Part shown: positions 4,709 to 25,159 of the stretch, one piece after another
Numbering within the stretch: the stretch's first letter is position 1
Layout of the letters: the number at the start of each line of letters is the position of its first letter
Virus record (IMG/VR): IMGVR_UViG_3300025010_000204
Location: 1 to 27,620 of that record
Source of the DNA: a virus
Strand: one strand, 5' to 3'
Length of the DNA: 27,620 nt
Notes under the pieces: generated by a model
Told to the model about the DNA's origin: nothing
Databases searched by the model: none
The model's input: only the letters and a program-made list of their open reading frames with translations
Program-made: the position numbers and the translations under genes

Positions 4709-4769
4709 CACAACAGGACCGCCGTGAGGCTGGCCGAAACTACTGTCGTGATGACAGAAGGAGCACCAT
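4709..4769 (+). promoter_or_regulatory. Tandem-hairpin leader of the major capsid gene
   Basis: Two short hairpins precede the capsid start. The first pairs CC-GCC (4719-4723) with GGC-T-GG (4728-4733) around a GTGA loop. The second pairs CTGTC (4743-4747) with GACAG (4753-4757) around GTGAT. The Shine-Dalgarno AAGGAG (4758-4763) follows at once. The arrangement and much of the sequence recur before the tail tube gene at 8864-8932. It may be an mRNA stabiliser or translation enhancer for abundant virion proteins; this function is inferred. Confidence 0.55.
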
Positions 4770-5969
4770 ATGAGTGCAAAACTTAGAGAGATGTTGGAAA
4801 AACGGAATCGTTCCGTGACCGAGGCTCGGGCGCTTGTTGACAAAGCCGAGGCAGAAAAAAGAGAGATGTCCGCCGAGGAAACCGGCCAGTATGATGCACT
4901 GCTCAAAGACGCAGTAAATCTCCGGGATAGTATCGACCGGGAGACCCGTCTTCAAGAGGAAGAACGGGCGAATGCGGCTGCGGCGGCTCAGAATGCGGTG
5001 CAGAAGCCAAGTACCCCCGATGCTGAGCTTCGTTCGGTGGCGTTTCGCAATTTGCTTCGTACTGGTCAACTGACCGCTGAAGAGCAACGAGCGCTTGTCA
5101 CCGGGTCCGATACTGGTGGTGGGTTCTTGAACGCCCCGCAAGAATTTGTTCCCCGGCTGATTGCGGCTGTTAAGAATATGACCTTTCTTGAGGGGCTTAC
5201 GACCGGGTTTACAACTACCAATGTTAATGGTCTTGGTTTTCCGACGCTGGAAACCGATGTCGATGATTTCTCGATGATCACTGAGATCAAGACGGCTCCG
5301 GAAGATAGCGCTCTTGCTTTCGGGAAACGCGAATTCAAGGCGCATCCTTCCAGTAAATTGATCAAGTGTTCTGATGCAATGCTCCGGGCGGACGGTATTG
5401 ATCCCGAGGCCATTGTTATGGATCGGGTTGCCTATAAATATGCCATTTTGAAAGAAAATAAGTATCTGCTGGGAACCGGTAACCAGGAGCCCCTTGGGTT
5501 GTTTGTTGCGTCAGCTAAAGGCATCAATACTGATCGGGATATCACACTCGCAGGGACCACGGATTTCACTGCTGATGACATTGTGAATATTAAATATAAC
5601 ATGAAAGCGCAGTATATGACGAAATCTTCATGGCTTTTTAATAGGACTGCTGTTGCTAAACTCGCCAAGGTGAAGGACGGTGAAGGACGGTACTTGTTCG
5701 AGTTGACTGATAAGATCGGCGCACTCGATAACCTCAAAGGTTCCCCGTTATACATGAGTGAGTACGTACCGAACACTTTTACCACTGGTTTATATGTCGG
5801 TATGTTCGCTGATTTCTCTTGGTACTGGACTCTGCAGTCATTGTCGCTTCGGATCAAGCGACTGAATGAGCTTTTTGCCGCAACTCGCCAGGTTGGTTTC
5901 TTGTTCGACACCGAGTTTGATGGGATGCCCGTGCTCTCAGAGGCATTCACTCGAATTAAATGCCTGTAA
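4770..5969 (+). CDS. Major capsid protein, HK97 fold
   Basis: This protein is the main subunit of the icosahedral head. The 399-residue product has an N-terminal, charged, coiled-coil delta domain (about residues 1-85, Lys/Glu/Arg-rich with an Ala-rich stretch), expected to act as built-in scaffold and be removed by the adjacent protease. The mature part starts somewhere around residues 100-115. It shows the family block TGSDTGGGFLNAPQEF, then SDAMLRAD, KENKYLLGTGNQEPLG, SSWLFNRTAVAKLAKVKDGEGRYLF and GTEFDGMP-like ends (here DTEFDGMPVLSEAF). The exact cleavage site cannot be placed from sequence. The tandem-hairpin leader and strong AAGGAG are consistent with very high expression. Confidence 0.95.
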   Translation: MSAKLREMLEKRNRSVTEARALVDKAEAEKREMSAEETGQYDALLKDAVNLRDSIDRETRLQEEERANAAAAAQNAVQKPSTPDAELRSVAFRNLLRTGQLTAEEQRALVTGSDTGGGFLNAPQEFVPRLIAAVKNMTFLEGLTTGFTTTNVNGLGFPTLETDVDDFSMITEIKTAPEDSALAFGKREFKAHPSSKLIKCSDAMLRADGIDPEAIVMDRVAYKYAILKENKYLLGTGNQEPLGLFVASAKGINTDRDITLAGTTDFTADDIVNIKYNMKAQYMTKSSWLFNRTAVAKLAKVKDGEGRYLFELTDKIGALDNLKGSPLYMSEYVPNTFTTGLYVGMFADFSWYWTLQSLSLRIKRLNELFAATRQVGFLFDTEFDGMPVLSEAFTRIKCL

Positions 5970-6013
5970 TCTAAATATTATGCACCCTCCGGGGAGCTTT
6001 CTGAAGGAGTATT

Positions 6014-6460
6014 ATGAATCTCTCAAAACACGTAAAAGTTACTCAATTGCTCGGATACTTCGCAGCCGGGCAGACCACCAGAAAAGGAGCGGTTCTGGAT
6101 ATGGCCGGATACGAAGGATGCATGTTCATCTTTTCATTCGGCACCATTCTCAACACCGGGACCATTGCTTGCGACATCAATGGTAACACTACTAATGCCA
6201 CCGGCGGCACCAAACTTGCCGGTGGGGCCACTCATACGGTAACGACCACTACTGCGGCTCTCACTGAGTCGGCTATTGTGGTTGACTTGTACCAACCTGA
6301 CCCGGCGACCAGTCGATACGTTGAACCGATGATCACTCTCGGTGTGGCTAATACCTTGATTCTCGGAATCGTGGCCATCCAGTACAACGGTAAGAAAAAG
6401 CCTGAAATTACCAGTCAACTCTTGGCGGCTTCTGTTTCTGCTTCCCCGGCTGCCGCGTAA
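6014..6460 (+). CDS. Putative head decoration or structural protein
   Basis: The predicted product has 148 residues and is rich in Thr, Gly, Ala and short hydrophobic strands, consistent with a beta-rich virion protein. It ends in an Ala/Ser-rich tail. Position directly after the capsid gene, with a good Shine-Dalgarno (GAAGGAG, 6003-6009), is where capsid decoration proteins are commonly encoded. I recognise a similar layout from other HK97-like phages, but no motif assigns an activity. It could alternatively be a head fibre base. Confidence 0.5.
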   Translation: MNLSKHVKVTQLLGYFAAGQTTRKGAVLDMAGYEGCMFIFSFGTILNTGTIACDINGNTTNATGGTKLAGGATHTVTTTTAALTESAIVVDLYQPDPATSRYVEPMITLGVANTLILGIVAIQYNGKKKPEITSQLLAASVSASPAAA

Positions 6461-6462
6461 TC

Positions 6463-6660
6463 ATGCTGGTGAGGATGAAGTCAATCATGGCCGGGCCTCA
6501 TGGTTCGGCCATGCCTGGACAGGTGGTTGACCTTGAAGAAACCCAGGCACTTCAGCTTATTAACGGCGGGTATGCCCAACCGGTTGTCGAGGTAGCTATG
6601 ACCGAACCGCCTGAAAATACAGATGCTCGCCCAAAGGCGAAACCACGAGGTAGAAAATGA
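6463..6660 (+). CDS. Small head-region protein of common phage type
   Basis: The 65-residue product contains MKSIMAGPHGSAMPGQVVDL and then AxxLINGGYA, a compact SH3-like pattern that I recognise from many small phage proteins located between capsid and head-tail connector genes. The C-terminal third is basic and Pro-rich (ARPKAKPRGRK). It starts two bases after the previous stop and its own stop overlaps the next start as ATGA. A structural or assembly role is likely from context; the biochemical role is unknown. Confidence 0.55.
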   Translation: MLVRMKSIMAGPHGSAMPGQVVDLEETQALQLINGGYAQPVVEVAMTEPPENTDARPKAKPRGRK

Positions 6661-7139
6661 GTTATAATACATTAGTTTATACCGAACAAGGTGGTGGTAG
6701 GCAGGTTATAGCCTCCGGCGGCATGTTCGATGCTCAATTCGGGTCGATTGTTACCGGATTGGTGTTGAACCTGCGGACTAGGGCGACCGCTGCCGAGGTC
6801 AATGCGGGACTTACACTGCTTCCGGCTCTGGCCGGGTATAAATACCGGTTGATCGATACAACCATGATCGCTATTGGCGGTAACGCAGCGACGGTGACCA
6901 CTGTTGATATTCTCGGTACCCAAACGAGCGAAGTGAAGCTCGTTGCGTTCGCGCAAGCACAGTTGACCCGTAGCACCGTGCTCCGTCCGGGGATCACCGG
7001 GGCCGCTGTTCTGGCTGACGGGGCGAGTTTTGTGGCAAATGATGCCAACACTGCAGTCCGGGTGTTAAAAACGGGTAGTGATATGGCTACCGCTACCCAC
7101 GTCGATATCATCTTGACCTACGTTATCGAGGCTGCATGA
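6657..7139 (+). CDS. Hypothetical structural protein
   Basis: This 160-residue product is rich in Ala, Thr and Val with alternating strands (for example AATVTTVDILGTQ) and no signal peptide or membrane segment. A shorter early part, VTGLVLNLRTRATAAEVNAGLTLLPALAGYKYRLIDTTMIAIGG, resembles small beta-barrel decoration proteins. It overlaps both neighbours by ATGA. It is probably a minor capsid or capsid-decoration protein, on context alone. Confidence 0.45.
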   Translation: MSYNTLVYTEQGGGRQVIASGGMFDAQFGSIVTGLVLNLRTRATAAEVNAGLTLLPALAGYKYRLIDTTMIAIGGNAATVTTVDILGTQTSEVKLVAFAQAQLTRSTVLRPGITGAAVLADGASFVANDANTAVRVLKTGSDMATATHVDIILTYVIEAA

Positions 7140-7945
7140 TCCTGAAGCAGTACATACCCCCGGCTGCCGAGCCGATGCATTTAACCGAGGCGAAGCAGCA
7201 TGTCAAGGTGGGCGGGGTTGTTGATGTAACGACTTTTACTGCCGATGATGCTCTGCTCACGGTTGCAATATCAGCTTGCCGTCAGGCTGCCGAGACGGAA
7301 CAGTGGCGGGCGCTGGTATTGCAGACGTGGGATCTTTATCTTGACGGTTTTCCTGGCGGTAATGCCATCCGGTTGCCGCTCCCCCCACTCCGGGCTGTCG
7401 GGTTCGTGAAATATACCGACAGTTCCGGAGTTATTCATGATTTTACGGACTTTACCGTTGATCTGGCGAGTGAGCCTGGTCAGATAGTCTTGAATTATGG
7501 TTGCTCCTGGCCGTCGGCCACATTGGCCCCGAGTAATCCGGTCCATATCCGGTTCCAGTGTGGGTATCTGGTGCCGTTTACCAAATCCGGATCGACGGTC
7601 AGCATCCTGAACAGCCCGTTCGTTGTCGGGGATCGGGTGCGGTTGTCGGTATCGGGTGGGGTGCTCCCGGCCCCGCTTGCTGTATTAACCGATTACTTCG
7701 TCACGGCTACCGGCTTGTCGCTTACTGCGGGTGGCGCCGATGTGGTCATTACGGCGGCAGGAACCGGGTTGAACTTTATCGGGGAACTGCCGGCCAGTAC
7801 AATGATCGGGATGAAATTGATCCTGACCGACTTGTATGAAGAGCGGGGTGACACGGTTATCGGCCGGTCAACCAACTCGTTGCCAATGACACTCCCCCGG
7901 GCGGCTACTCATTGGTTCGCCATGGACAGCGCGAGGCACTTCTGA
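7136..7945 (+). CDS. Head-tail connector, gp6-like, with inserted beta domain
   Basis: The connector ring docks under the portal. Residues about 1-146 show the family pattern: an N-terminal LTEAKQHVKV, a helix ending in QAAETEQWRALVLQTWDLYLDGFPG, and strands LPLPPLRAVGFVKYTDSSG and VHIRFQCGY. Residues about 222-269 carry the usual closing helix ILTDLYEERGD. Between these parts lies an extra module (about 147-220) with PFVVGDRVRLS and LPAPLAVLTDYFV, a beta-rich pattern seen in other phage virion proteins. At 269 residues it is longer than ordinary gp6-like connectors, and the insertion accounts for the difference. The start overlaps the previous stop by ATGA. Confidence 0.75.
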   Translation: MILKQYIPPAAEPMHLTEAKQHVKVGGVVDVTTFTADDALLTVAISACRQAAETEQWRALVLQTWDLYLDGFPGGNAIRLPLPPLRAVGFVKYTDSSGVIHDFTDFTVDLASEPGQIVLNYGCSWPSATLAPSNPVHIRFQCGYLVPFTKSGSTVSILNSPFVVGDRVRLSVSGGVLPAPLAVLTDYFVTATGLSLTAGGADVVITAAGTGLNFIGELPASTMIGMKLILTDLYEERGDTVIGRSTNSLPMTLPRAATHWFAMDSARHF

Positions 7946-8316
7946 TGGCAATACCCGGTAACAGTCTCAGAGCTTGGACACCACCCGGTAAGCGTAACCG
8001 GATTATTATGATCCAGAGTGAGGTTGCCACGGGGGAGACCGATGCACACGGTGGGGAAGTTAAGGCATGGACCGATTTCACTCCTGGTGGAGTGTGGGCT
8101 TATGTGCGGCCACTTAGGAGCCGGGAATTGATCGCGGCACAGGCAGCACAGAGTTTGACGGAGGTTATCTTCAATATCAGTTATGTTGCGGGCATAACCG
8201 CGGATATGCGGATCGTTTATAACGGTAAGAATTATGATATTACCGATCCGATCGATGTGGACGAAGCGCGGCGAGAGCTTGACATTATGGCAAAAACAGG
8301 GTTGAGTGAAGGGTAA
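7945..8316 (+). CDS. Head closure (head-tail adaptor) protein
   Basis: The product closes the DNA channel and joins the connector to the tail. I place the start at 7945, where TGATG overlaps the previous stop; a longer in-frame start at 7912 would add 11 residues lying over the upstream gene. The 123-residue product has the adaptor pattern: an early RNRIIMIQSE strand, WTDFTPGGVWAYVRPLRSRELIAAQAAQS, IFNISYVAGITADMRIVYNGKNYDITDPID, and a short end. This fits the SPP1 gp16 / HK97 gp7-like family. Confidence 0.8.
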   Translation: MAIPGNSLRAWTPPGKRNRIIMIQSEVATGETDAHGGEVKAWTDFTPGGVWAYVRPLRSRELIAAQAAQSLTEVIFNISYVAGITADMRIVYNGKNYDITDPIDVDEARRELDIMAKTGLSEG

Positions 8317-8328
8317 CAAGGAGAGGAT

Positions 8329-8523
8329 ATGGCAGAGTTGAAAGTAGAAGTGGGCGTGGAAAAAGCGATTCATAATGCTGTCAAAGATTTTGCCGAGCAT
8401 GTTTTGGACAAACACGGGGTTCGACTTGATCAAATCGATATCGAGTGGACTGGTGGTTCACTCGATCGCATGAGTACGGTGGTTCAGCAGACTTCTTTGA
8501 AGACAACAAGGTCTCAAAAGTAG
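8329..8523 (+). CDS. Hypothetical 64-residue protein in the gp10 slot
   Basis: The product starts with a charged amphipathic helix (residues about 1-30) and ends in a basic tail. AGGAGA (8319-8324) is a good ribosome site. Its position between head closure and tail terminator is normally taken by a gp10-like neck protein, yet the sequence looks unrelated to that family, and a gp10-like gene is found downstream at 10227. It may be a neck or tail-completion helper. No family is recognised. Confidence 0.45.
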   Translation: MAELKVEVGVEKAIHNAVKDFAEHVLDKHGVRLDQIDIEWTGGSLDRMSTVVQQTSLKTTRSQK

Positions 8524-8856
8524 ATGGCTAGCTTCGAGGCGGGTCTAAAGACCTTGCTCGGGAACCTCGTGTCGGGCCGATGTTATGCTCTAGTCAACGA
8601 GTCACCGACCATAGTTTGCCCGTATATCATCTTCCAGGTGGTTACGGAAACGAAGTTGGTTCAAGGGCAGAAGAAGCTACGGTTGCAGATCGACGTTTAC
8701 GGTAAGACTTATACATCAGCCAAGACCACGGCTGACGCAGTACAAGCAGCAATGGATGGCCCAACTTTTGCGACGTCGTTCATTATGCAACAAGACCTCC
8801 GGGAGGAAGTAAGTAAAGAATATCGAGAACTTCTCGAATATTACGTCTGGCCATAG
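8524..8856 (+). CDS. Tail terminator / tail completion protein (DUF3168-like)
   Basis: The product caps the tail tube and joins it to the head. The 110-residue product matches the DUF3168 pattern: an N-terminal helix FEAGLKTLLGNLV, a strand with CPYIIFQVV, QKKLRLQIDVYGKTYTSAKTTADAVQAAM and a closing YRELLEYYVWP. The ATG follows the previous TAG with no gap, so translation is probably coupled. The gene is directly followed by the tail tube leader. Confidence 0.82.
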   Translation: MASFEAGLKTLLGNLVSGRCYALVNESPTIVCPYIIFQVVTETKLVQGQKKLRLQIDVYGKTYTSAKTTADAVQAAMDGPTFATSFIMQQDLREEVSKEYRELLEYYVWP

Positions 8857-8863
8857 AGCCAGG

Positions 8864-8932
8864 ATAACAAAAGGACTGTCGCGATGACAGGCCGGACACT
8901 TACTGTCGTGAAGACAGAAAGGAGTAGTACCC
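8864..8932 (+). promoter_or_regulatory. Tandem-hairpin leader of the tail tube gene
   Basis: Two copies of a CTGTC-N5-GACAG hairpin lie in the 76-base gap before the tail tube gene: 8876-8890 with loop GCGAT and 8903-8917 with loop GTGAA. Shine-Dalgarno AAAGGAG follows at 8918-8924. The block aligns with 4709-4769 upstream of the capsid gene, including GGCCG-like spacers and the AAGGAG end. No terminator-type T run follows either stem. The role is inferred to be translational or mRNA-stability control. Confidence 0.55.
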
Positions 8933-9574
8933 ATGGCAGAAGATACAGTTTGGAAAAACGTTGCGGTCAGTATTGGTTCCCTCGGAACCGCTCTCACCAT
9001 TACAGCGATCACCAAAGCAAGTCCTGGTGTCGCTACATCGGTCGGTCACGGCCTCAGTAACGGCGATTATGTGTATCTTGCCACGCAAGGTATGCGCCAA
9101 GTCAATCAGAAGGTTGTTCGTGTTGCAGGCGTAGCCGCCGACACCTTCCAACTCGAAGGAGTTGATACCACGGATTACGATACCTTCGTATCCGGGACAG
9201 CAAAAGAGGTGACCTACAGTACCTCTATGTCTTCCGCAATTTCGGTCGATGCCGCCGGTGGCGAATTCGACATGATCCCCACTACCACCATTCATGCCGC
9301 TCAGAAGAGCGAGGTTCCCGGCCTCCCATCGGCCATCAGTTACAATATGGACCACAAATGGGACCCCACTGATGTGGCTCAAGCTACAATGAAAGCAGCT
9401 TCCGACATCCAAGCGATCAAAGGTTTCAAGTTCCAATTTGGTTCAGGCGGTAAGATCCTGGTGCTCGCCGGGTATATTGGTTTCTCCAATGCTCCTGGTG
9501 GTTCAGCTCAACAGCTTGTTACCTGCCGGTCGGTTATTACGACGCTCGGAACCACTACCTTCTACGCGAGTTAA
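8933..9574 (+). CDS. Major tail tube protein with an FCCH-like insertion
   Basis: The product stacks as rings to form the non-contractile tail tube. The 213-residue protein begins AEDTVWKNVAVSIGSLG and its second half, after about residue 98, carries the tube pattern: SGGEF-like DAAGGEFDMIPTTTI, SEVPGLPSAIS, a central amphipathic helix (DVAQATMKAASDIQAIKGF) and closing strands with ATQ/FYAS. Residues about 20-97 form a separate beta module (TKASPGVATSVGHGLSNGDYVYL, ADTFQLEGVDTT) of the FCCH-like type that phage tail proteins often carry on the outside of the tube. The strong leader and SD fit a highly expressed virion protein. Confidence 0.85.
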   Translation: MAEDTVWKNVAVSIGSLGTALTITAITKASPGVATSVGHGLSNGDYVYLATQGMRQVNQKVVRVAGVAADTFQLEGVDTTDYDTFVSGTAKEVTYSTSMSSAISVDAAGGEFDMIPTTTIHAAQKSEVPGLPSAISYNMDHKWDPTDVAQATMKAASDIQAIKGFKFQFGSGGKILVLAGYIGFSNAPGGSAQQLVTCRSVITTLGTTTFYAS

Positions 9575-9577
9575 TCC

Positions 9578-9892
9578 ATGATCAAACTTAACCTAGATCC
9601 GACTTTCGACGCCGAGGTTCCAATTACCGTACCAGGTCAAGCGGAACCCGGCACGATCCCTTTGACCTTTAAGTATCGGGGCCGGAAGGAGTACCTGGCT
9701 TGGTTGGAATCCAATAAAGAAGAAGCCAAGACCCAGACTGAAGTCTTCCTTGAGTTTGTTACAAAATGGGGCTTGTCGGAAGACTTCAATCCGGCGAACA
9801 TTGAGATCTTTCTGGACCAGTACCCGGCAGCGTATTTCGATATTATTAGTGATTACTCAAGGTTGCTGTTCGAGAGTAGGGCAAAAAACTAG
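9578..9892 (+). CDS. Tail assembly chaperone, short form (gpG-like)
   Basis: The protein helps the tape measure protein assemble the tail tube and is not itself in the virion. The 104-residue product begins with a beta-type segment (KLNLDPTFDAEVPITVPGQ, GTIPLTFKYRGRKEYLAWL) followed by helices, the general layout of phage TAC proteins. It ends with R-A-K-N-stop, where GCA AAA AAC TAG contains the slippery heptamer A AAA AAC. It is followed in the -1 frame by a DUF1799-like extension. The Shine-Dalgarno is weak (gap of 3 bases from the tail tube stop), so translation is probably coupled. Confidence 0.85.
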   Translation: MIKLNLDPTFDAEVPITVPGQAEPGTIPLTFKYRGRKEYLAWLESNKEEAKTQTEVFLEFVTKWGLSEDFNPANIEIFLDQYPAAYFDIISDYSRLLFESRAKN

Positions 9893-9927
9893 AAGCTGCC
9901 GCCGTTGCCCTTGTAGGCGGCGGCAGC
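9883..9927 (+). promoter_or_regulatory. Programmed -1 ribosomal frameshift signal
   Basis: The heptamer A AAA AAC (9883-9889) lies in the zero frame of the chaperone gene, with codons AAA and AAC. It is followed after a 5-base spacer (TAGAA) by a perfect 10-bp stem: GCTGCCGCCG (9895-9904) with CGGCGGCAGC (9918-9927), loop of 13 bases. The zero-frame TAG stop lies at 9890-9892, within the spacer. This is the canonical arrangement that sends a fraction of ribosomes into the -1 frame, as in lambda gpG/gpGT. Confidence 0.93.
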
Positions 9928-10230
9928 GAAGATAAGGCTGAAGATCGAGCGAAGAAGCTCGGTGTGCCTCTTGAACTGGTAATGGAGGCGGAAGGGTTTA
10001 AGAAGTCGGATCACGACGGAATCTATCCGGATAACTGGCAGACGGTAGGAGTGTTTCTTGATATGCTCACTCAATGGCGAACAGGGATGAATGGAGCAAC
10101 CGGGCTTGACTACACTGCCCTCCCTGTGGTCTTGAGAATCAGGAAGGTTGCACTTGCCGAGCGAGAGGATGTTTTTAATGGTCTGCAGGTAATGGAACGA
10201 GCGGCACTCACACACATGAGGCGGAAATGA
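9889..10230 (+). CDS. Frameshift extension of tail assembly chaperone (gpT-like, DUF1799)
   Basis: This frame is read only after a -1 shift from the chaperone gene starting at 9578; the full fusion would have 104 + 113 = 217 residues. After a short charged linker, the segment contains the DUF1799-type pattern YPDNWQTVGVFLDMLTQWRTGMNGATGLDY, then an end rich in Arg and Lys. The extension part is expected to recruit the tape measure protein. No stop occurs in the -1 frame between 9889 and 10227, and the only internal start candidate (GTG at 9964) lacks a Shine-Dalgarno. The stop overlaps the next gene as ATGA. Confidence 0.88.
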   Translation, partial: LEAAAVALVGGGSEDKAEDRAKKLGVPLELVMEAEGFKKSDHDGIYPDNWQTVGVFLDMLTQWRTGMNGATGLDYTALPVVLRIRKVALAEREDVFNGLQVMERAALTHMRRK

Positions 10231-10592
10231 GCGGCGGAATCCTAAATGCTGAAGCGTTTGTCGATATTGAAGGGTTTGATATCGGCCTGGATGAGATCAT
10301 TATGGACATTGACGCTCATGAAGTCAAGGCGGTTGCCGCAACTGTTCGCGATAAAGCTCAAGCCACCAGTGCTTTCATTGATCGTAGCGGTAAACTTCGA
10401 GATAGTATCACCATGCGCAAGAGTAAGTTTGAAGATGGTGGATATATCGTCGTTGCCAAAGATCCTAAAGCTCACCTTATAGAATGGGGCCACGTTAAGA
10501 TACTATGGGGTAAGATCACCGGGGAGCGTGTCCCGGCTAAATCTTTCATGCGTAAGGCGTTGGAAGAAACCGTAAGCGAGTTGGGTGGCTGA
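10227..10592 (+). CDS. HK97 gp10-like tail/neck protein
   Basis: The 121-residue product has the gp10 pattern: a central KAQATSAFIDRSGKLRDSITMRKSK, a strand YIVVAKDPKAHLIEWGHVK, and the end VPAKSFMRKALEETVSEL. The family acts at the head-tail junction or tail completion. Its position is odd: in most HK97-like phages it precedes the tail terminator, whereas here it sits between the frameshift chaperone and the tape measure gene. It overlaps both neighbours (ATGA and TGATG). Confidence 0.75.
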   Translation: MSGGILNAEAFVDIEGFDIGLDEIIMDIDAHEVKAVAATVRDKAQATSAFIDRSGKLRDSITMRKSKFEDGGYIVVAKDPKAHLIEWGHVKILWGKITGERVPAKSFMRKALEETVSELGG

Positions 10593-12508
10593 TGGCGATT
10601 ACGCGGAAAATAAAGGGTATCTACATTCCGGTTAAGCTGGATTCCACTCAGCTTGCCAAGGATACGTTGAGAGCCAAGCAGATTGTCACCGAGTCGGCTA
10701 AGTCGATGTCGGACGCTCTCAATAATGCTTTCACCCCCGGTCAAATCAAGGGTAATATCAATGCTCTGATTGCCAATCTCGGTACCCTTGCCCGTTCTCA
10801 GGGGCTTGTCAAAGAATCGTTTCAATCTATCGGTGTTGCTCTTGGTGATCTACAGCGATTGACGGGCACCACCGGCGGGGAGTTTATCCGGTTGCAGCAA
10901 CGGATGATGGAAACCCAAGCGGCGAAGGCCCAGGAAAACGCTCTTCGGTCAGTTTCTACCGCCATCGGCGCTACCCGTCAGGAAGTCCAGGAACTCGGAA
11001 CACAATTCGGTTTATCGGTCGCGCAGATCGATAAAGTCACTCTCGCCCTTCACGGTGAGGAGAAGGTGGTTCAGTCTCTTGCACAGCGGATCAGAGAACT
11101 TAATACCGCCAAACCGATTGTCAATTACACCACCATGGCCAGCAGTGCCAGTACTGGACTAAATACCCAAGCCCAAGCTGCAACCCAGGCGTTTTCAAAA
11201 GACCTTGTGGCTTTGTCTGGAAGCGCGGAAATTGCCCGTCGGTCTGTTGATCTTCTTGAACTCGATATGGTAGCTCTGAGCAGAACGACCGGTCTTACTG
11301 CCGCTCAGATCACCATGTTAAAATCTCGTTTTGCAGCAACTGCCGGCGAGAAATCACAAGAACAGGCTCTTCAGAACATTGCTCGATCCGCTGGACTTGC
11401 TGAAAAAGAAATGCGGGCGCTCGGTAGACAGATGGGTGTCTCGCAGGCGTCAATTGATAAGGTTGCTACCAGCATGAACACCCTCGGTAAATCCACCGAG
11501 TTCAGCATGTCGAAGTTCAAGGATATGATCATCACGGTTGGAATCTACACCGTGGCTTTTCAAGCGTTCAGTGCCGTAACCAGCGGAATCACGAACGAGT
11601 TTAAGAGGGGGTTGAAAGCGGTCGAAGACTTCGACCTCGCCGTTGCCACCAGTGCCGCTTTTATTGCCACATTCTCAAAGAATCTGAAGGGCACTGATAT
11701 TGCCGGGGTCTATGATCGTGCGGCAGGGTATGCCGGAAGGTTGAACGAGAAATTGGAGATGATCGATACCCAGACGATTGCTTCCGGTAAACATCTGCAA
11801 ACCATGTCTGAGACGTTCATCCAGCATGGTGTTCTGCTCGACATCAATAACCAGAAGCAAGTCGAAGGCTTTACGAACATTGCCACGGCGTTGGCAATGG
11901 TCACGGCCGGCCAGAATCAAGATGTACAGGTACGGCAGGAGATCAATGCTTTGATGCTCGGTCAGGTCCGGGCGACTGACCGGCTCGCACAGCTGCTGAT
12001 GAACATCGACCCGCAACTCAAGAGTCATCTCAAGACCTGGCGGGAAGAAGGAACGGTTATTGAGAACGTCGGTGAACTGCTTAAAGGGTTCGCCTCGAAC
12101 ACCGGCACCCTGCAAAACCAGTGGGTGACGGTAGGCAGTACCATGGAAACGATCCATAATCGAATCCTTCGCGACGCCTTCCGCCCGATGTTTGAGGATC
12201 TGATCAAGCTCGCCAAAGCGCTGAATTCATCGCTGATGGATTCCGAGGGCAACCTGACATATATCGCCATCGGTATTCAGAATATCATCAAGGGGATTTA
12301 CGAGTTCAGCAAGGTGGCGGCTAAAGCATCTGTAGACGCTGGAAAGCAGATGGTTGCTGGTCTCCCCGTGGTTGGGCCGATCGTCAACGCTCTGGGGTTG
12401 ATGGAGAAACTGAACTCCCGACATCAATTTCGGCATTATAGATTCTTTGAAAGCCGAGGCCGCCGAACTTGCCCGCTTGCGCAATATGGAAGACCCATGG
12501 ATGCATAA
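10592..12508 (+). CDS. Tape measure protein, N-terminal part
   Basis: The product sets tail length and may later help DNA ejection. The 638-residue frame is long, helical and Ala/Gln-rich. Two imperfect 70-residue repeats occur at about residues 84-153 and 226-295, followed by a hydrophobic segment MIITVGIYTVAFQAFSAVT (about 312-330). The last 31 residues (from N608) do not look like the rest and run out of frame with the next gene. The likely true protein continues in the +1 frame from about 12411-12420, where a CCC run (12417-12419) would restore the frame if one C were removed. The start overlaps the gp10-like stop as TGATG. Confidence 0.85.
   Translation: MAITRKIKGIYIPVKLDSTQLAKDTLRAKQIVTESAKSMSDALNNAFTPGQIKGNINALIANLGTLARSQGLVKESFQSIGVALGDLQRLTGTTGGEFIRLQQRMMETQAAKAQENALRSVSTAIGATRQEVQELGTQFGLSVAQIDKVTLALHGEEKVVQSLAQRIRELNTAKPIVNYTTMASSASTGLNTQAQAATQAFSKDLVALSGSAEIARRSVDLLELDMVALSRTTGLTAAQITMLKSRFAATAGEKSQEQALQNIARSAGLAEKEMRALGRQMGVSQASIDKVATSMNTLGKSTEFSMSKFKDMIITVGIYTVAFQAFSAVTSGITNEFKRGLKAVEDFDLAVATSAAFIATFSKNLKGTDIAGVYDRAAGYAGRLNEKLEMIDTQTIASGKHLQTMSETFIQHGVLLDINNQKQVEGFTNIATALAMVTAGQNQDVQVRQEINALMLGQVRATDRLAQLLMNIDPQLKSHLKTWREEGTVIENVGELLKGFASNTGTLQNQWVTVGSTMETIHNRILRDAFRPMFEDLIKLAKALNSSLMDSEGNLTYIAIGIQNIIKGIYEFSKVAAKASVDAGKQMVAGLPVVGPIVNALGLMEKLNSRHQFRHYRFFESRGRRTCPLAQYGRPMDA
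10841..11050 (+). repeat. Tape measure internal repeat copy 1
   Basis: Residues 84-153 of the tape measure N-terminal part align with residues 226-295. Shared landmarks are L-x2-TG, an ALR/ALQ followed by a variable stretch, and the end SVAQIDKVTLAL against SQASIDKVATSM. The copies are divergent, so this is an old duplication. Confidence 0.5.
11267..11476 (+). repeat. Tape measure internal repeat copy 2
   Basis: This is the second copy of the 70-residue unit, offset by 142 residues from copy 1. It ends in SIDKVATSM just before the hydrophobic segment. Repeats of this kind are common in tape measure proteins and can change tail length when duplicated or deleted. Confidence 0.5.
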
Positions 12509-15398
12509 TGCGCTGGTCGCACCGGAACTGAAACCTCATACAGGGAAAGAATATGAAAGCAAGGCCAGTGACCTGAATGCCGCGCTGCAGGCCGAAGTGG
12601 AATTGATTAAAGCGGCTGAAGAGAACAAGCTTGCGGTCATCAGGACTTATAGCGACCAGATGCAGCAGCTCAACCAGAACGATTACGATCTTGGTTTATC
12701 GTCGTACTCTGACTACCTGGAAGAGAAGAACGCTCTTACCCAACGGTCACTTGCTGCCGAACTCGCCGCCAAAGAAACCGAACTCGCCGCTGCCCGCGAT
12801 GCCGCCGCCAAACTATCCCCAATCACCGATAAGGAAGGTAACGCCCGTCCGGACAAGGACGCCAAGGCCCATGCCGACGCCTTAAAGAAAGTCGAGGACG
12901 CTGAGCGGGGTGTCACTGAAGCGGCCAACAAGCTGACGCAAGCACAAGTTGAAGGCTCACATGCTGCGCAAGTTGCCAACAAGGAGTTGACTGACAGTTA
13001 CCACGAGTTGCAGGCCGAATTGCTGGAGATGACCGGCAGGCATGTCGAGGCCGCACAGTTGATGCTCAAGTATGATGATGAGGCTGTTGCCAAGCAGCAT
13101 TTGAGCGTGGAAGAGCAGCGGGTTGCGGACATCAAGCGTCAGATCGCTCAACAGAAGATCACCGAACTCAAACGGCAGGATCTGGCTACCACCAAGGAAG
13201 CGGCTCTTGCTCTGGCCGAGATCGATGGTCAGTACTACAAGTCGCTCGACCTGCAGACCGAGCTTCTTGATATTGAGATGCAGCGAACTGACTTGCTGCC
13301 CGCACAAATCGAACTCCTCAAGAAACAGCGGGAAGAGATCGAGCGGATGAAAGATCCGATGGACGCATGGGCCAAGGGGTGGGAAGATGTGGTTGAGCAT
13401 CAGAAGACCTCAAGCGAGTTGATGTATGATTTGGCTAGGACTACGGCGCAGGACATGCAGCAGGCGTTTTCGGACACTTTCTTCAATGTGATGAAAGGAA
13501 ACTTCGAGGACATTGGGGATGTCTGGAGTAACCTGTTGGACCGGATGCTCGACAATTTCCTGCGAATGATCGCTGATATGATCGCCGCCTGGGCCGCGTC
13601 TGAATTGTTCGAAATGTTCACCGGAACCGAATCGGGCTTCACCTTCGCCGGGGCGCTCTCCGGGAAGAGTGGTGGGACGGGGGGTGCAGTTGCCGGGATC
13701 GTCGGAGAGCTCGGTAAAGAATATATCTCTCAAGGGATCAAAGAGTCTGTAGCAGCGTATTTTACCTCATCTGCTGCGACGGCAGCCAGCACATCCACCA
13801 ATCTGGCACAAGGGACTGCGACTCCGGCGATACTCGATGCGGCGGCTAATTCTGGTTCGGGTTACAGTTCTCTGCTTGGCACTGCTGGTGGGGTGATCGG
13901 AGTAGCGGGCGGCGGATACGGTATGTACTCCGGGGTACAGAATATCTCGAAAGGAAATTATGCTGTCGGGTCGGTACAAACCGGCCTCGGTGCGTATTCT
14001 ACTTACCAAGGCGCTGTCACTCTGGGCCTGATCGAGAAAGGGACCGCAACCGCTGCTTATGACGCTGTGGCCTCGTATTTCGCAACTGAGGCGGCAGGAA
14101 CAGCCACTACGACAGCCGCAGCTACGACTGCTGGCACCAGCACTGGTGCAACCGCCGGGTTAGGTGCCGGTGCTACGCTCGGTATAGGCGCTGCCCTCAT
14201 GGCTGCGGTTGCCATGATCGGCCTCAATCAGATGGCGAACAATGTACCGACCCGGAATAGTCTTGGTCATACCGATCCTTCACAGCTCGGAGGTATCGGT
14301 CTCAATGGCGGTTTGTCCAATATCTCCAAGGAGCAGGTTGCGATTGCTGACGAGCTTGGAATGAAGATTAAACAGTTCGGTGCCGCCTCCATTGATACCG
14401 CAAATGGGGTGATGGTTGCAACCACGGCTCTTGCTGGACCGCGAGGTTTTGCCGAAGGCACCGAATTTGCGCTGAACACTTGGGATGAATCAACCCAGAC
14501 TTGGTACAAAGGGGTTAAAGACAACCGGCACATTTGGGATGATATGCTTACCGAGATGTCCGCACTCAAACCGGCTTCCGAGGCTGCCACCATTGCCAAC
14601 GCCCAATTGATCGCGTCTCAGCATGGTCTTGCCACCGTGGCTGACGAACTTGTGATCGCCTATAATGCCGGGGCTGGTAGTGCTCGTTTTATGGCTGATG
14701 CTCAGGTCCAGTTGACCGCTTTGATGGAAGCGGGCGTCATCACCATCAATGAGACTTCCGGAGCCTGGGAGGCACAGACAGGCCTGTACAGCGACATGGT
14801 TGATGAGATGAAACGGGTTGCCCCGGTCACCGAATCGGCCATCCAATCAACTGCTGAGTACATTGCGACCGCTCACGGCGTACCGCAAATGGCCGATGAA
14901 CTCGCCGCGGCGTTCGCTCTTCTTTCCGGCGGGCTCTCTGGGCTTGGTGGTGCTGCGGGTGGTGCGGTCAGTAGTATCTATTCGGCACTGGCCAGCTTGC
15001 AGAATCCGTACCTCAGCGGCGGTCGTGATAACGCTCAGGATATACGAGCCTACATCGATTCGAACGGCAAGGCCCCATACACGCCTGAAGGTTACACTCC
15101 GACCGAATATATGGTTGGTACCAGTGACCCGAAGAAGAAGTATACGTACGCCACGTATGACGGCGCCATGGCGGACGGCGGCGATATTGGGCCGGGTCGA
15201 TGGGGGATGGTTGGTGAGGCGGGTCCGGAGATCATTTGGGGCCCTGCACATGTCACCAGCACGAAAGACACCGGCAGTTTGATGCAGTCCAATAAAGAGA
15301 TGCTGTCGGCAATTTTTATCATGGGACGGAACATAGCAAGGATGAGTGAAGAGATCCAGACTATCAATAATCTTGGTATCAAGCAAAGGGACTCATGA
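12447..15398 (+). CDS. Tape measure protein, C-terminal part (lambda family end)
   Basis: Open from 12414 in the +1 frame relative to the N-terminal part; the first possible start is TTG at 12447, which lacks a Shine-Dalgarno, so it is best read as a continuation. Residues about 30-315 are helical and coiled-coil-like. Residues about 318-391 (AQDMQQAFSDTFFNVMKGNFEDIGDVW, LLDRMLDNFLRMIADMIAAWAA) match the lambda tape measure C-terminal domain. Gly/Ala-rich hydrophobic segments follow near 471-493 and 565-595, which may insert in the host membrane during ejection. The end carries GRWGMVGEAGPEIIWG (about 914-929), a pattern frequent at tape measure C-termini. The summed length, about 1,600 residues, implies a long tail if one protein is made. 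Confidence 0.88.
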   Translation: MKAEAAELARLRNMEDPWMHNALVAPELKPHTGKEYESKASDLNAALQAEVELIKAAEENKLAVIRTYSDQMQQLNQNDYDLGLSSYSDYLEEKNALTQRSLAAELAAKETELAAARDAAAKLSPITDKEGNARPDKDAKAHADALKKVEDAERGVTEAANKLTQAQVEGSHAAQVANKELTDSYHELQAELLEMTGRHVEAAQLMLKYDDEAVAKQHLSVEEQRVADIKRQIAQQKITELKRQDLATTKEAALALAEIDGQYYKSLDLQTELLDIEMQRTDLLPAQIELLKKQREEIERMKDPMDAWAKGWEDVVEHQKTSSELMYDLARTTAQDMQQAFSDTFFNVMKGNFEDIGDVWSNLLDRMLDNFLRMIADMIAAWAASELFEMFTGTESGFTFAGALSGKSGGTGGAVAGIVGELGKEYISQGIKESVAAYFTSSAATAASTSTNLAQGTATPAILDAAANSGSGYSSLLGTAGGVIGVAGGGYGMYSGVQNISKGNYAVGSVQTGLGAYSTYQGAVTLGLIEKGTATAAYDAVASYFATEAAGTATTTAAATTAGTSTGATAGLGAGATLGIGAALMAAVAMIGLNQMANNVPTRNSLGHTDPSQLGGIGLNGGLSNISKEQVAIADELGMKIKQFGAASIDTANGVMVATTALAGPRGFAEGTEFALNTWDESTQTWYKGVKDNRHIWDDMLTEMSALKPASEAATIANAQLIASQHGLATVADELVIAYNAGAGSARFMADAQVQLTALMEAGVITINETSGAWEAQTGLYSDMVDEMKRVAPVTESAIQSTAEYIATAHGVPQMADELAAAFALLSGGLSGLGGAAGGAVSSIYSALASLQNPYLSGGRDNAQDIRAYIDSNGKAPYTPEGYTPTEYMVGTSDPKKKYTYATYDGAMADGGDIGPGRWGMVGEAGPEIIWGPAHVTSTKDTGSLMQSNKEMLSAIFIMGRNIARMSEEIQTINNLGIKQRDS

Positions 15399-22186: not shown

Positions 22187-25159
22187 ATGCTCGGGCTTAG
22201 ATTACGACTGAGCAGTAATCACGGTCTACCGCGCACCCCAGGCAGTCGCGGGCCTGTTGGAGTAGAGCTATCAACTGTCTATGAATCAAGATGGTTCAGG
22301 CCGCGTGTTGGTCCGTTCACTATTCCTGTGGGCGCTGAGTTATTCCTTAACGACGAATGGCTCCCACCCGGAAGTTATTTGTGGGATGGTGGGGATGTGC
22401 TGCCTGCTGATGAGCTGGAATTTTTGGCTACGACCGAGAGCGGTTTGATTGATACTATCGGCTTATCAATCAAAAATATCGGCTCAGAATCTGGCAGTTT
22501 GCAATGGATGGGACTGCGTAACCTTTTCGGCCCGTATGCGTTTTTTGCCCAAGCTCCAGCCGGAAGCATGTTTGTTAATAGCGATGGGTCGATGCTGCTG
22601 GCCTCAGACTTCTATGGGTCGAAAGGGTGGGACGGAAACAAAATAAGCGGAACAGACAAGACCATATATATCAATGGTCGGATCAACTTCAAAGGAAGTG
22701 ATGGAGTTTATTATTCCAGCCACTATGACACCACGGCAAAACGCGGTTGGATCGTAGAGTGCTCAAACGGATATAGTTTTGCAAAAATCCAGGAATATTA
22801 TAACTCGACATTTGAGAAAGACGTTGGCGAAAGCATAAGCGTTGTTTCCTGGAATTTCACCGAGGATAAGAACGGCAATATTTGGACAGGTGAATACGGT
22901 CTCGGCACTCCCTTAGAATTGTCATCCGCCGTTTTGTGGCGGAAAAGAAACGGCACCTGGGAGAATGTAATAGTATTTGACGGGGCAAACGGGACCATCA
23001 AGGAGCGGCATGTTCATTGGGTTTATTATTGCCCCCATCAGGATAAGTTGTATGTGGCTCTCGGTGATAACGATAACGGCATCCTGTATCTGCCGGGGAG
23101 CAAACTCGATCAAGAGGTAATCACTTCTTCCGATTTTGTTCGCTTCAGGCCATACAATACTTCATGGCCGCTTGCGACCGGAAAAATGTGTGTGGTGCCG
23201 ATAACATCGGACGCAAATTACAGATATGCCAGTCTCGACATTCACGTTGATGGAGCAAATAACAGAGCCATACTCCGTTGGGCTGATGATGATGCGAATA
23301 TCTCGGAGGTTGTCTATGAAGAAAGTTACACCACAGGGGCTTATGGGGTTTTAGCGTGGTGGGCGCACTCTTATAACGGGGTGGTGGTATTCTCTTATGC
23401 TGTGGAGGGTACGACAGGCGAGAATAAAATAGTTTTTTCCGGCGACCAAGGCGAGACATGGACCGAGAGAATAACGTCGAACAAAACTAATGCCGCTGGT
23501 GGTTTGCGGTCAGCGTTTCTACCATCCTACTATGACACAACGTGGGCCGGGATATACGCTGGCGGGGCGGCATGCGTCGCCGATGATAGGCCTGTCGTTG
23601 GAAGAATTGGCACCGGGAGAATAAGTATCAGTCCGACTGGGTTTGATTATTCCCTCGGCTCTGAGGGCTATCCGCTGAAAAATCACGATTTTCTTCCAGC
23701 GCTATTATCCGACAATAAAAACGTCAGGTTTAACGGGGAGTTTACTCAGCCTGTCGCGGTTAATCTGTCGGGGTGCAAGCTCTCTGGCGGCAAATTCAGT
23801 GGAACCGCAGTCGGTGTGGCCGCAGGACTATCCGAAACTTTCGAGGCATTGCAGGCCAGTTGGACGTTCACATCTACTGCCGGAGCGTCGGCGGAATCAA
23901 CCATCGTTGCATCGGGATCACAATCAGCAAAAATACTGACTGCCGATGGAACGAGTAATCCAAAGATATACAAGTACTATTATTTTTGCGACAGTGGGGA
24001 TGTATCCCACATAAAATTCAAATACTACCTCGCCGCCAATGTGGTCGCGAACGGTAGATTTAAAATGGCTCAAATAAACGGCAGTAGCACCAGCAGATAT
24101 GAAATTTACGTTCGAGGAGCAGGGGCAAGTTTTATCCAAAATGAATTGACCTTGGCCGAAACCAGCAGGGCTGCTCTGTGGATGCAATCAGGGTATACGG
24201 TGCCAGATCTCCCCGGAGTCGTAATATCTGCCGAGGAATGGCATGATATTGAGCTGATCATCGGGGGGCATGTCGATGAGGGCTATTTCAAAATACTGGT
24301 TGACGGAAAACTGGCTGCTCATGTAGTAGGCCAAACTCTCGCCACAGCCGCAGAGCGTTTCAGTTATTTCAGCCTTGAGGCATACGGCAGTGCCAACAGT
24401 TTCTATGTCGATGAATTCCAATCGTGGAAGAACACCGAGCCTGCTGATTTAGGGTCGTTGAATATTGCTGGCAGTGGAAATCTCGTATCTGCAATAACTG
24501 CCTCCGTCAATCCTGTTATCAATAATGCAACAACGACTCGCTTTGCCAGTATGCTGCTCAGGGACATGACTGGCGATGCTTTCGAGACAACAGGCGATAC
24601 CTCTGTTAAAAACTCAATTTTTACTAATATCACCGGAAACGATATTGTTGACAATGGCGCAACTGTCACGGTTGCCGGGAATTTTACCGATGGCGATGGC
24701 GACCCGCTCATAGATCCGGCTGGAAGGCTCACCGCCACATCTATTTGTATTGGAGCAGGAATCAACCCATTTGTCCAGGCAGACGGCGATCAGTACGACG
24801 CAGACGGTTACAAAATCTATGCTGCAACTCTCGGTATCCCAGAAGGCCAATGGATCGACGGTGTTGATATTGGGGCGTATGCCTATGGCGGCGGGGACAA
24901 GGTTTATCTGCCACTAACGGTTATTTCAGGCACAGGCCCTAGTGATTGGGTAGTTAAGCTCCCTGCTGCTCCTGATATCATCAATATTCTTGGACTCGAC
25001 TCAATTTATTATGATGCCAGTGCAGTGCCGAAAGAAATCACATGGGCAACGCACACTGATAATGGTTTGATCCGCTTTGGCAGCAAAGGCGCAGTGTGTT
25101 ATGCGGTTATGCAGGATGCGGCGGCAATAGTCAAAATTGACAGATATATTGGCAACTGA
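22187..25159 (+). CDS. Large tailspike-like protein with Asp-box and LamG-like domains
   Basis: The 990-residue product lacks a signal peptide. Its N-terminal 110 residues (IPVGAELFLNDEWLPPGSYLWDGGD) form a small-domain region, possibly for tail attachment. Residues about 125-520 look like a beta-propeller of the sialidase/BNR kind, with an Asp-box SGDQGETW at residues 418-425. Residues about 545-755 resemble a LamG/galactose-binding sandwich (WHDIELIIGGHVDEGYFKILVDGKL, YVDEFQSW). The next part ends in DGVDIGAYAYG (near 895), a phrase common at the end of beta-helix proteins. A short C-terminal domain closes it. It is likely a receptor-binding or capsule/LPS-acting spike; no catalytic residues can be assigned beyond the fold. 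Confidence 0.6.
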   Translation: MLGLRLRLSSNHGLPRTPGSRGPVGVELSTVYESRWFRPRVGPFTIPVGAELFLNDEWLPPGSYLWDGGDVLPADELEFLATTESGLIDTIGLSIKNIGSESGSLQWMGLRNLFGPYAFFAQAPAGSMFVNSDGSMLLASDFYGSKGWDGNKISGTDKTIYINGRINFKGSDGVYYSSHYDTTAKRGWIVECSNGYSFAKIQEYYNSTFEKDVGESISVVSWNFTEDKNGNIWTGEYGLGTPLELSSAVLWRKRNGTWENVIVFDGANGTIKERHVHWVYYCPHQDKLYVALGDNDNGILYLPGSKLDQEVITSSDFVRFRPYNTSWPLATGKMCVVPITSDANYRYASLDIHVDGANNRAILRWADDDANISEVVYEESYTTGAYGVLAWWAHSYNGVVVFSYAVEGTTGENKIVFSGDQGETWTERITSNKTNAAGGLRSAFLPSYYDTTWAGIYAGGAACVADDRPVVGRIGTGRISISPTGFDYSLGSEGYPLKNHDFLPALLSDNKNVRFNGEFTQPVAVNLSGCKLSGGKFSGTAVGVAAGLSETFEALQASWTFTSTAGASAESTIVASGSQSAKILTADGTSNPKIYKYYYFCDSGDVSHIKFKYYLAANVVANGRFKMAQINGSSTSRYEIYVRGAGASFIQNELTLAETSRAALWMQSGYTVPDLPGVVISAEEWHDIELIIGGHVDEGYFKILVDGKLAAHVVGQTLATAAERFSYFSLEAYGSANSFYVDEFQSWKNTEPADLGSLNIAGSGNLVSAITASVNPVINNATTTRFASMLLRDMTGDAFETTGDTSVKNSIFTNITGNDIVDNGATVTVAGNFTDGDGDPLIDPAGRLTATSICIGAGINPFVQADGDQYDADGYKIYAATLGIPEGQWIDGVDIGAYAYGGGDKVYLPLTVISGTGPSDWVVKLPAAPDIINILGLDSIYYDASAVPKEITWATHTDNGLIRFGSKGAVCYAVMQDAAAIVKIDRYIGN

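Follow-up and report, generated by a model that had tools for sequence, protein, structure and literature searches.

The DNA analysed here, referred to throughout as the window, is the 27,620-base virus record IMGVR_UViG_3300025010_000204 from an uncultured phage. It carries a siphovirus-type morphogenesis module with genes for the terminase small and large subunits, portal, S78 protease, HK97-type major capsid protein (MCP), connectors, tail terminator and tail tube. Our subject is a hairpin leader that occurs twice in this module, before the MCP gene (4770-5969, plus strand, ATG at 4770; PF05065, phrog_10) and before the gene for the major tail (tail tube) protein (8933-9574, plus strand, ATG at 8933; PF08813, phrog_584). 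The protease stop and the MCP start are 61 nt apart, and 76 nt separate the tail-terminator stop from the tail-tube start.

The two leaders (4709-4769 and 8864-8932) hold two hairpins apiece, immediately 5′ of the Shine-Dalgarno (SD) sequence and on the plus strand. All four hairpins are built on one plan: a 2-bp foot, an unpaired A, a stem of ~5 bp and a GNGA-type loop. The MCP leader begins with an A-rich single-stranded linker (4709-4715; alignment A6), which reads AACAAAA in relatives. Next come hairpin 1, GG-A-CC-GCC-[GTGA]-GGC-T-GG-CC (4716-4735; 31.8 bits with model R2), and hairpin 2, CT-A-CTGTC-[GTGAT]-GACAG-A-AG (4740-4760; 34.3 bits with model R1), the foot of which overlaps the 5′ half of the MCP SD, AAGGAG (4758-4763). 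The tail-tube leader has the same order: an A-rich single-stranded linker, ATAACAAAA (8864-8872; alignment A6), hairpin 1, GG-A-CTGTC-[GCGAT]-GACAG-G-CC (8873-8893; model R2, 34.1 bits), hairpin 2, TT-A-CTGTC-[GTGAA]-GACAG-A-AA (8900-8920; model R1, 40.5 bits), and the SD AAAGGAG (8918-8924).

A sequence-only reading of this DNA had described two small hairpins in each block, three of the four stems sharing CTGTC/GACAG and the fourth (4719-4733) pairing despite a different sequence. The sequence is as described, each leader having two look-alike units. CTGTC-N5-GACAG occurs exactly 3 times in the window, against ~0.03 expected from base composition, and all copies lie within the two leaders; the fourth stem is the inner part of the hairpin at 4716-4735. 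Across the window, models R1 and R2 pick out just these four units. The two leaders are 77% identical. Their folding energies are ordinary (z ~ -1.3), so single-sequence folding would not have been proof; the significance of the hairpins comes from their repetition and their covariation in relatives, not from folding energy. A further hairpin is often found across the tail-terminator stop codon (CTGGCC...stop...GGCCGG), in the window at ~8848-8863 and also in L103-L105, L118 and L119, so that some tail-tube leaders consist of three hairpins in a row.

Covariation and strand of the hairpins

Using the MCP and the tail-tube protein, and alignments of each, as queries, we collected ~150 related loci, in which we examined the 90-130 nt 5′ of the homologous starts. 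The sequence-only reading had seen structural conservation under sequence change, and the relatives and the tail-tube protein tree strongly support this: hairpins are conserved before the same genes, with paired changes far above the null. The two-hairpin layout recurs with altered stems in ~20 phages. L007 has TTCCGC-TTGG-GCGGAA at the place of hairpin 2, and further stem variants are CTGCT-GTGA-AGCAG (L104), CCGCT-GTGA-AGCGG (L119) and ATGTC-GTGAT-GACAT (L118). Hairpin 1 of L113 has CA/TG where others have CC/GG, while the foot is GC/GC in L105 and L107 and GA/TC in L103, compared with GG/CC in the window. Single hairpins are found before both genes in L005 and before the MCP gene in L008 and L034. 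The two leaders of L006 are identical across the hairpins; together with the lower identity of the window's copies, this indicates that leader copies diverge and are sometimes homogenised.

For hairpin 2 (20 sequences), 98.7% of cells are paired and 6 of 8 pairs have changed on both sides. The covariation score is 0.540, compared with 0.234 after shuffling; none of 500 shuffles reaches 0.540, and all slid registers score far lower. For hairpin 1 (25 sequences), all 175 cells are paired and each of the 7 positions shows two or more pair types, and shuffles are 84% paired, in an alignment made by hand around the structure, which favours pairing. RNAalifold, run on a MAFFT alignment of whole leaders, independently recovered both hairpins, with double changes in 9 of 11 pairs. 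On a tail-tube protein tree of 15 phages, the left and right sides of the stems co-change 29 times over 10 of the 14 pairs; simulation of independent columns with an equal number of changes gave a mean of 4.1 and a maximum of 9 in 500 runs. The base pairs are conserved through compensatory changes, as is characteristic of a structured cis-acting leader.

The aligned units, of ~21 nt, yield the consensus NN-A-C-N-G-N-N-[GNGA(n)]-N'-N'-C-(a)-N'-G-R-N'N'. Near-invariant in it are the loop G-N-G-A, the unpaired A and, within the inner stem, the C-G pair at the first position and the G at the third; other positions swap. The unpaired A faces A or G, or bulges, and the loop is a GNGA-type tetraloop that may carry one additional base. 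Hairpins 1 and 2 follow one rule and so resemble duplicates of a single recognition unit. The loop is biased to GNGA over GNAA: the pattern finds 13 contigs with the former and 2 with the latter, and both GNAA contigs also have the pattern before capsid genes. A 9-bp outer stem lies beneath the first hairpin in L294, and likewise in L108 and L118. The two hairpins might also dock in tandem, with the GNGA loop of one entering CU:AG or CC:GG pairs of its partner. Loops and pair types are compatible with such docking, the association is weak (post hoc p ~0.04) and single-hairpin leaders exist; it is only a lead.

We also ran a structure-only descriptor (foot, A, stem, GNRA loop and foot, with no stem sequence) on 293 kb of element-bearing contigs. 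It found 34 plus-strand units just 5′ of an SD and start codon, two of which look like chance, with no minus-strand match and none in the reversed sequence of the same 293 kb. This test is partly non-blind, as some contigs had been found by pattern, most coming from protein searches. Between the 5-bp stem and the start codon lie 10-15 nt, most often 12. The units thus keep to one strand and to a set place relative to gene starts, a further mark of a structured cis-acting leader.

These observations bear directly on whether the repeats act as DNA. CTGTC-N5-GACAG is a near-perfect DNA palindrome that could be read as a LexA-like operator (CTGT...ACAG) or as a recombination joint between gene modules, and the identical leaders of L006 show that copies can be duplicated or converted. 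A DNA-level site is nevertheless very improbable and largely refuted by the covariation. Stem letters change freely, which would destroy an operator; the strand bias is 34 to 0; the half-sites are spaced by N7 rather than the N8 of the LexA box (CTGT-N8-ACAG); and no promoter match was found at either leader. The G-U pairs, the asymmetric GNGA loop and the unpaired, bulged A likewise indicate RNA rather than DNA. The hairpin leader is a real RNA structure, not a DNA site. The stems are intergenic and contain GC, as an intrinsic terminator or attenuator before each gene would, but neither leader has a coding-strand T-run or a terminator match, and a single weak minus-strand match (8890-8876) was the only hit; we give this explanation almost no credence.

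Genes served and distribution among phages

The association with MCP and tail-tube genes is strongly supported by inspection of upstream regions, by the model searches and by the pattern scans. The latter were run on DNA and used no protein information, and their matches still lie mostly 5′ of MCP or tail-tube genes. They extend to other MCP families, namely phrog_1357 (L198, L205), Phage_capsid_3 (L199), P22 coat (L293) and Mu gpT (L294); a second P22-coat MCP with a hairpin is found in G020, on a contig matched elsewhere by one pattern scan. By our rough estimate, about one chance match per scan is expected in the whole collection, so repeated landing on the correct strand ~10 nt 5′ of capsid genes is not chance. 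We discounted weak or isolated matches in G019, L204, L296, L297 and L298, which are doubtful or due to chance. Those in G019, a 110-kb virus record, are two single CTGTC-GTGA-GACAG hairpins on the minus strand (23572-23605 and 30790-30806) with a less clear tie to an SD; they may be a further branch of the hairpin family or chance.

The element is not restricted to these two genes. The sequence-only reading had placed it before only the two genes that need most product, and this holds within the window, where the models find no other unit, but fails in relatives, which have the hairpin before genes for the terminase small subunit, prohead protease, tape measure, a minor tail protein and small membrane proteins. 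Thus G004 carries it before the terminase small subunit gene, a small open reading frame (ORF), the ClpP-type head protease gene, the MCP gene (in tandem) and the tail-tube gene. The sites in G009 are a small ORF and the MCP, tail-tube and tape measure genes, and those in L043 are the MCP, tail-tube and a minor tail gene. In L008 and L034 a hairpin also precedes small membrane-protein genes between terminase and portal. The window has an unlisted ORF of 54 aa with hydrophobic stretches between terminase and portal (2666-2830), which, unlike its L008 and L034 counterparts, has no hairpin upstream.

Searches of reference collections gave little. With Rfam 15 there was no match in the window at the gathering threshold, nothing relevant around the MCP leader even at E<=10, and nothing relevant in four relatives at E<=1. 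INPHARED gave no DNA match to the region and no BLAST match to the consensus leader. The models found no hairpins in eight annotated phage records that encode related MCP or tail-tube proteins; the cultured relatives PS-1 and Aval instead have T-followed, terminator-like hairpins just 5′ of the tail-tube gene. A host-wide element was considered and rejected on a search confined to Pseudomonadota: 398 genomes gave 10 matches at E<=0.01 against ~4 expected, all judged to be noise. We found no account of the motif in the open literature (subscription papers and preprints were outside the scope of the search). The hairpin leader is therefore apparently an undescribed family of structured leader RNAs for virion genes.

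Possible roles of the leader

The sequence-only reading had listed mRNA stability, processing, translation and binding by a phage protein as candidate roles. Covariation, orientation and the tie to start codons identify an RNA element that acts on the following cistron, and the evidence points to action at the RNA level through conserved features suited to recognition. The conserved identity of the loop and the unpaired A points to a ligand, whether protein, ribosome or RNA. Our preferred reading, held with a little less than even confidence, is of a modular, strand-specific, cis-acting RNA leader in the late polycistronic mRNA that is recognised in trans and, through processing or protection, gives a virion cistron its own, probably higher, expression. 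One or two hairpin units, placed between the stop codon of the preceding gene and the SD, would lie within this mRNA and be recognised through the unpaired A, the C-G and G-C pairs and the loop. The hairpin would then form the 5′ boundary of an mRNA segment with its own processing or protection, with the conserved A-rich linker 5′ of hairpin 1 as a possible nuclease site, and the following virion cistron would obtain its own expression level. The observed structure, covariation, strand, position, gene association and spread across phages are the basis of this reading; to them it adds a putative ligand, a presumed positive effect and a candidate processing or protection route. A positive role is favoured because the genes served are mostly those of highest copy number, because the linker could be cut, and because of precedents discussed below.

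Several observations weigh against this reading. Many relatives with 44-65% identical MCPs lack the element and do well without it, so it is not essential to the gene order. Genes for the terminase small subunit and the protease, with low product need, also have the hairpin, and ‘high output’ is thus only a partial explanation. In predicted folds the leader does not make the SD more accessible (0.53 compared with 0.57 for shuffled leaders, with 4 of 23 leaders exceeding the median). In the window, part of the SD is paired with the foot of hairpin 2, which would also fit repression.

The last two points lead to a translational operator, in which a phage or host protein bound to the GNGA hairpins would hold the foot of hairpin 2 shut over the SD and so delay or cap virion protein synthesis. 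In favour of this, the stem pairs swap around a constant loop and unpaired A, and a tandem of similar units could accommodate two copies of a protein. The foot also pairs with the AAG of AAAGGAG, both in the window and in most of its close relatives, and SD accessibility is predicted to be slightly below that of shuffles. In the single-hairpin leaders (L005, L008, L034, L199) and in L043 and G004, by contrast, the foot stops short of the SD, and occlusion is therefore not a conserved feature. The element also precedes capsid genes of unrelated families; its presence before four capsid families and tail genes makes autoregulation by a single coat protein unlikely as a general mechanism and suggests a factor common to these phages, perhaps from a host group that they share. 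On this balance we regard an operator as possible but rather unlikely.

Small operator hairpins beside the ribosome-binding site (RBS) are known from other phages. In the coat operator of MS2, an unpaired A and a tetraloop are recognised. The translational operator of T4/RB69 gp43 is likewise a small hairpin beside the RBS (PMC3014915). Both serve a single gene, have one known ligand and differ in their loops, whereas the hairpin leader serves several genes.

A less specific explanation is that any stable stem 5′ of the SD blocks 5′ decay or frees the RBS, without a specific ligand. GNRA loops are inherently stable, and unrelated hairpins occupy the same place in L011, L012, L019 and L020. Stability would not need the unpaired A, the conserved C-G and G-C pairs or the bias to GNGA over GNAA, and the ordinary folding energies also speak against a generic hairpin. 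The same is true of the SD, which in predicted folds is no more accessible than with shuffled leaders, and we rejected a role as an RBS insulator; simple opening of the RBS is disfavoured. Overall, we consider a generic hairpin improbable.

Returning to processing or protection, the closest precedents come from two systems. In T4, RNase E cuts the gene 32 leader at -71 to give a stable species, and the processing site is conserved in T4-related phages (PMC3014915). Like the hairpin leader, this is a 5′ leader RNA in a phage polycistronic mRNA, and it lets one abundant product differ from its neighbours; unlike it, the T4 leader has a pseudoknot and an AU-rich gp32 operator, serves a single gene and lacks tandem GNGA hairpins. 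In the cip-cel operon, selective RNA processing and stabilisation, with intergenic stem-loops, sets the amounts of cellulosome subunits from one transcript (PMC4423207). The likeness is that the subunit ratio of one large particle is obtained from a single transcript. This operon is cellular, however, and its stem-loops lie mainly at 3′ ends beside processing sites and form no common hairpin family.

The nearest published phage analogue that we found is the SAS/ESAS system of Cluster K mycobacteriophages, short repeats at the translation starts of several genes, of unknown function with a suspected role in translation (PMC3203893). The SAS itself spans 13 bp, is asymmetric and conserved in sequence, and lies over the SD; about half of the copies have an inverted repeat just upstream, these 17-bp repeats are conserved in sequence, and the system lies in the non-structural half of the genome (PMC3203893). 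Both systems are repeated at several gene starts of one phage, but the hairpin leader keeps structure rather than sequence and serves mainly virion genes. The 13-bp SAS sequence over the start site, GGGATAGGAGCCC, is absent from the leaders read, which have (A)AAGGAG.

Recognition could also serve transcription, with the leader acting as an anti-termination or polymerase-modifying RNA that keeps RNA polymerase going through the long late operon. HK022 put consists of two tandem hairpins and lambda boxB of a 5-bp stem with a GNRA-like loop, both of which the leader resembles, and the terminator-like hairpins of PS-1 and Aval are in keeping with this idea. Put and nut occur once, in promoter-proximal leaders, and put and boxB act on RNA polymerase; the hairpin leader instead sits at a set distance (~12 nt) from the start codon and appears ahead of several genes within one operon. 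No recurring boxA-like sequence was seen in alignment A6. We therefore think this role quite improbable.

Phages need hundreds of copies of the capsid and tail-tube proteins and few of most other virion proteins, all made from a single long late transcript; outside a few model phages, the means by which this ratio is set are mostly unexplained. Here, a compact, covariation-supported RNA element that is absent from Rfam is reused before capsid families without recognisable shared sequence. We tentatively propose, as a possibility that falls well short of even confidence, that it is a ‘virion-gene tag’ of RNA common to unrelated phages, in which one host or phage factor would read the covarying GNGA hairpins and set virion-protein stoichiometry from a single late transcript. 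If the element does tune expression, it would serve as a portable part, and its ligand would amount to a new RNA-binding activity of phage or host origin.

Other features of the window and its relatives

Downstream of the tail-tube gene, the window encodes a tail assembly chaperone pair (9578-10230) with a canonical -1 frameshift site and the second ORF in the -1 frame. The slippery sequence A AAA AAC (9883-9889) is followed by a stop codon (9890-9892) and a very strong stem (9895-9927). Residues 38-90 of the tail-tube protein give a sub-threshold match to E1_FCCH (24.5 bits, cut-off 29.5), and this stretch is common to tail proteins of Pelagibacter and Vibrio phages.

Among the relatives, strong GC-rich hairpins unlike the leader element lie 3′ of the MCP gene in L008, L009, L010, L011 and L018, and are possibly partial terminators or 3′ protectors. 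L005 has ~4.5 kb inserted between its head-tail adaptor and head-closure genes (10227-14762) and an inverted fragment of a large-terminase gene at the contig end (2-430). In L294, downstream of the Mu-gpT-like gene, there is a weak HH9-like hammerhead match on the minus strand (1340-1408; 22.3 bits compared with a gathering threshold of 52, E 0.012).

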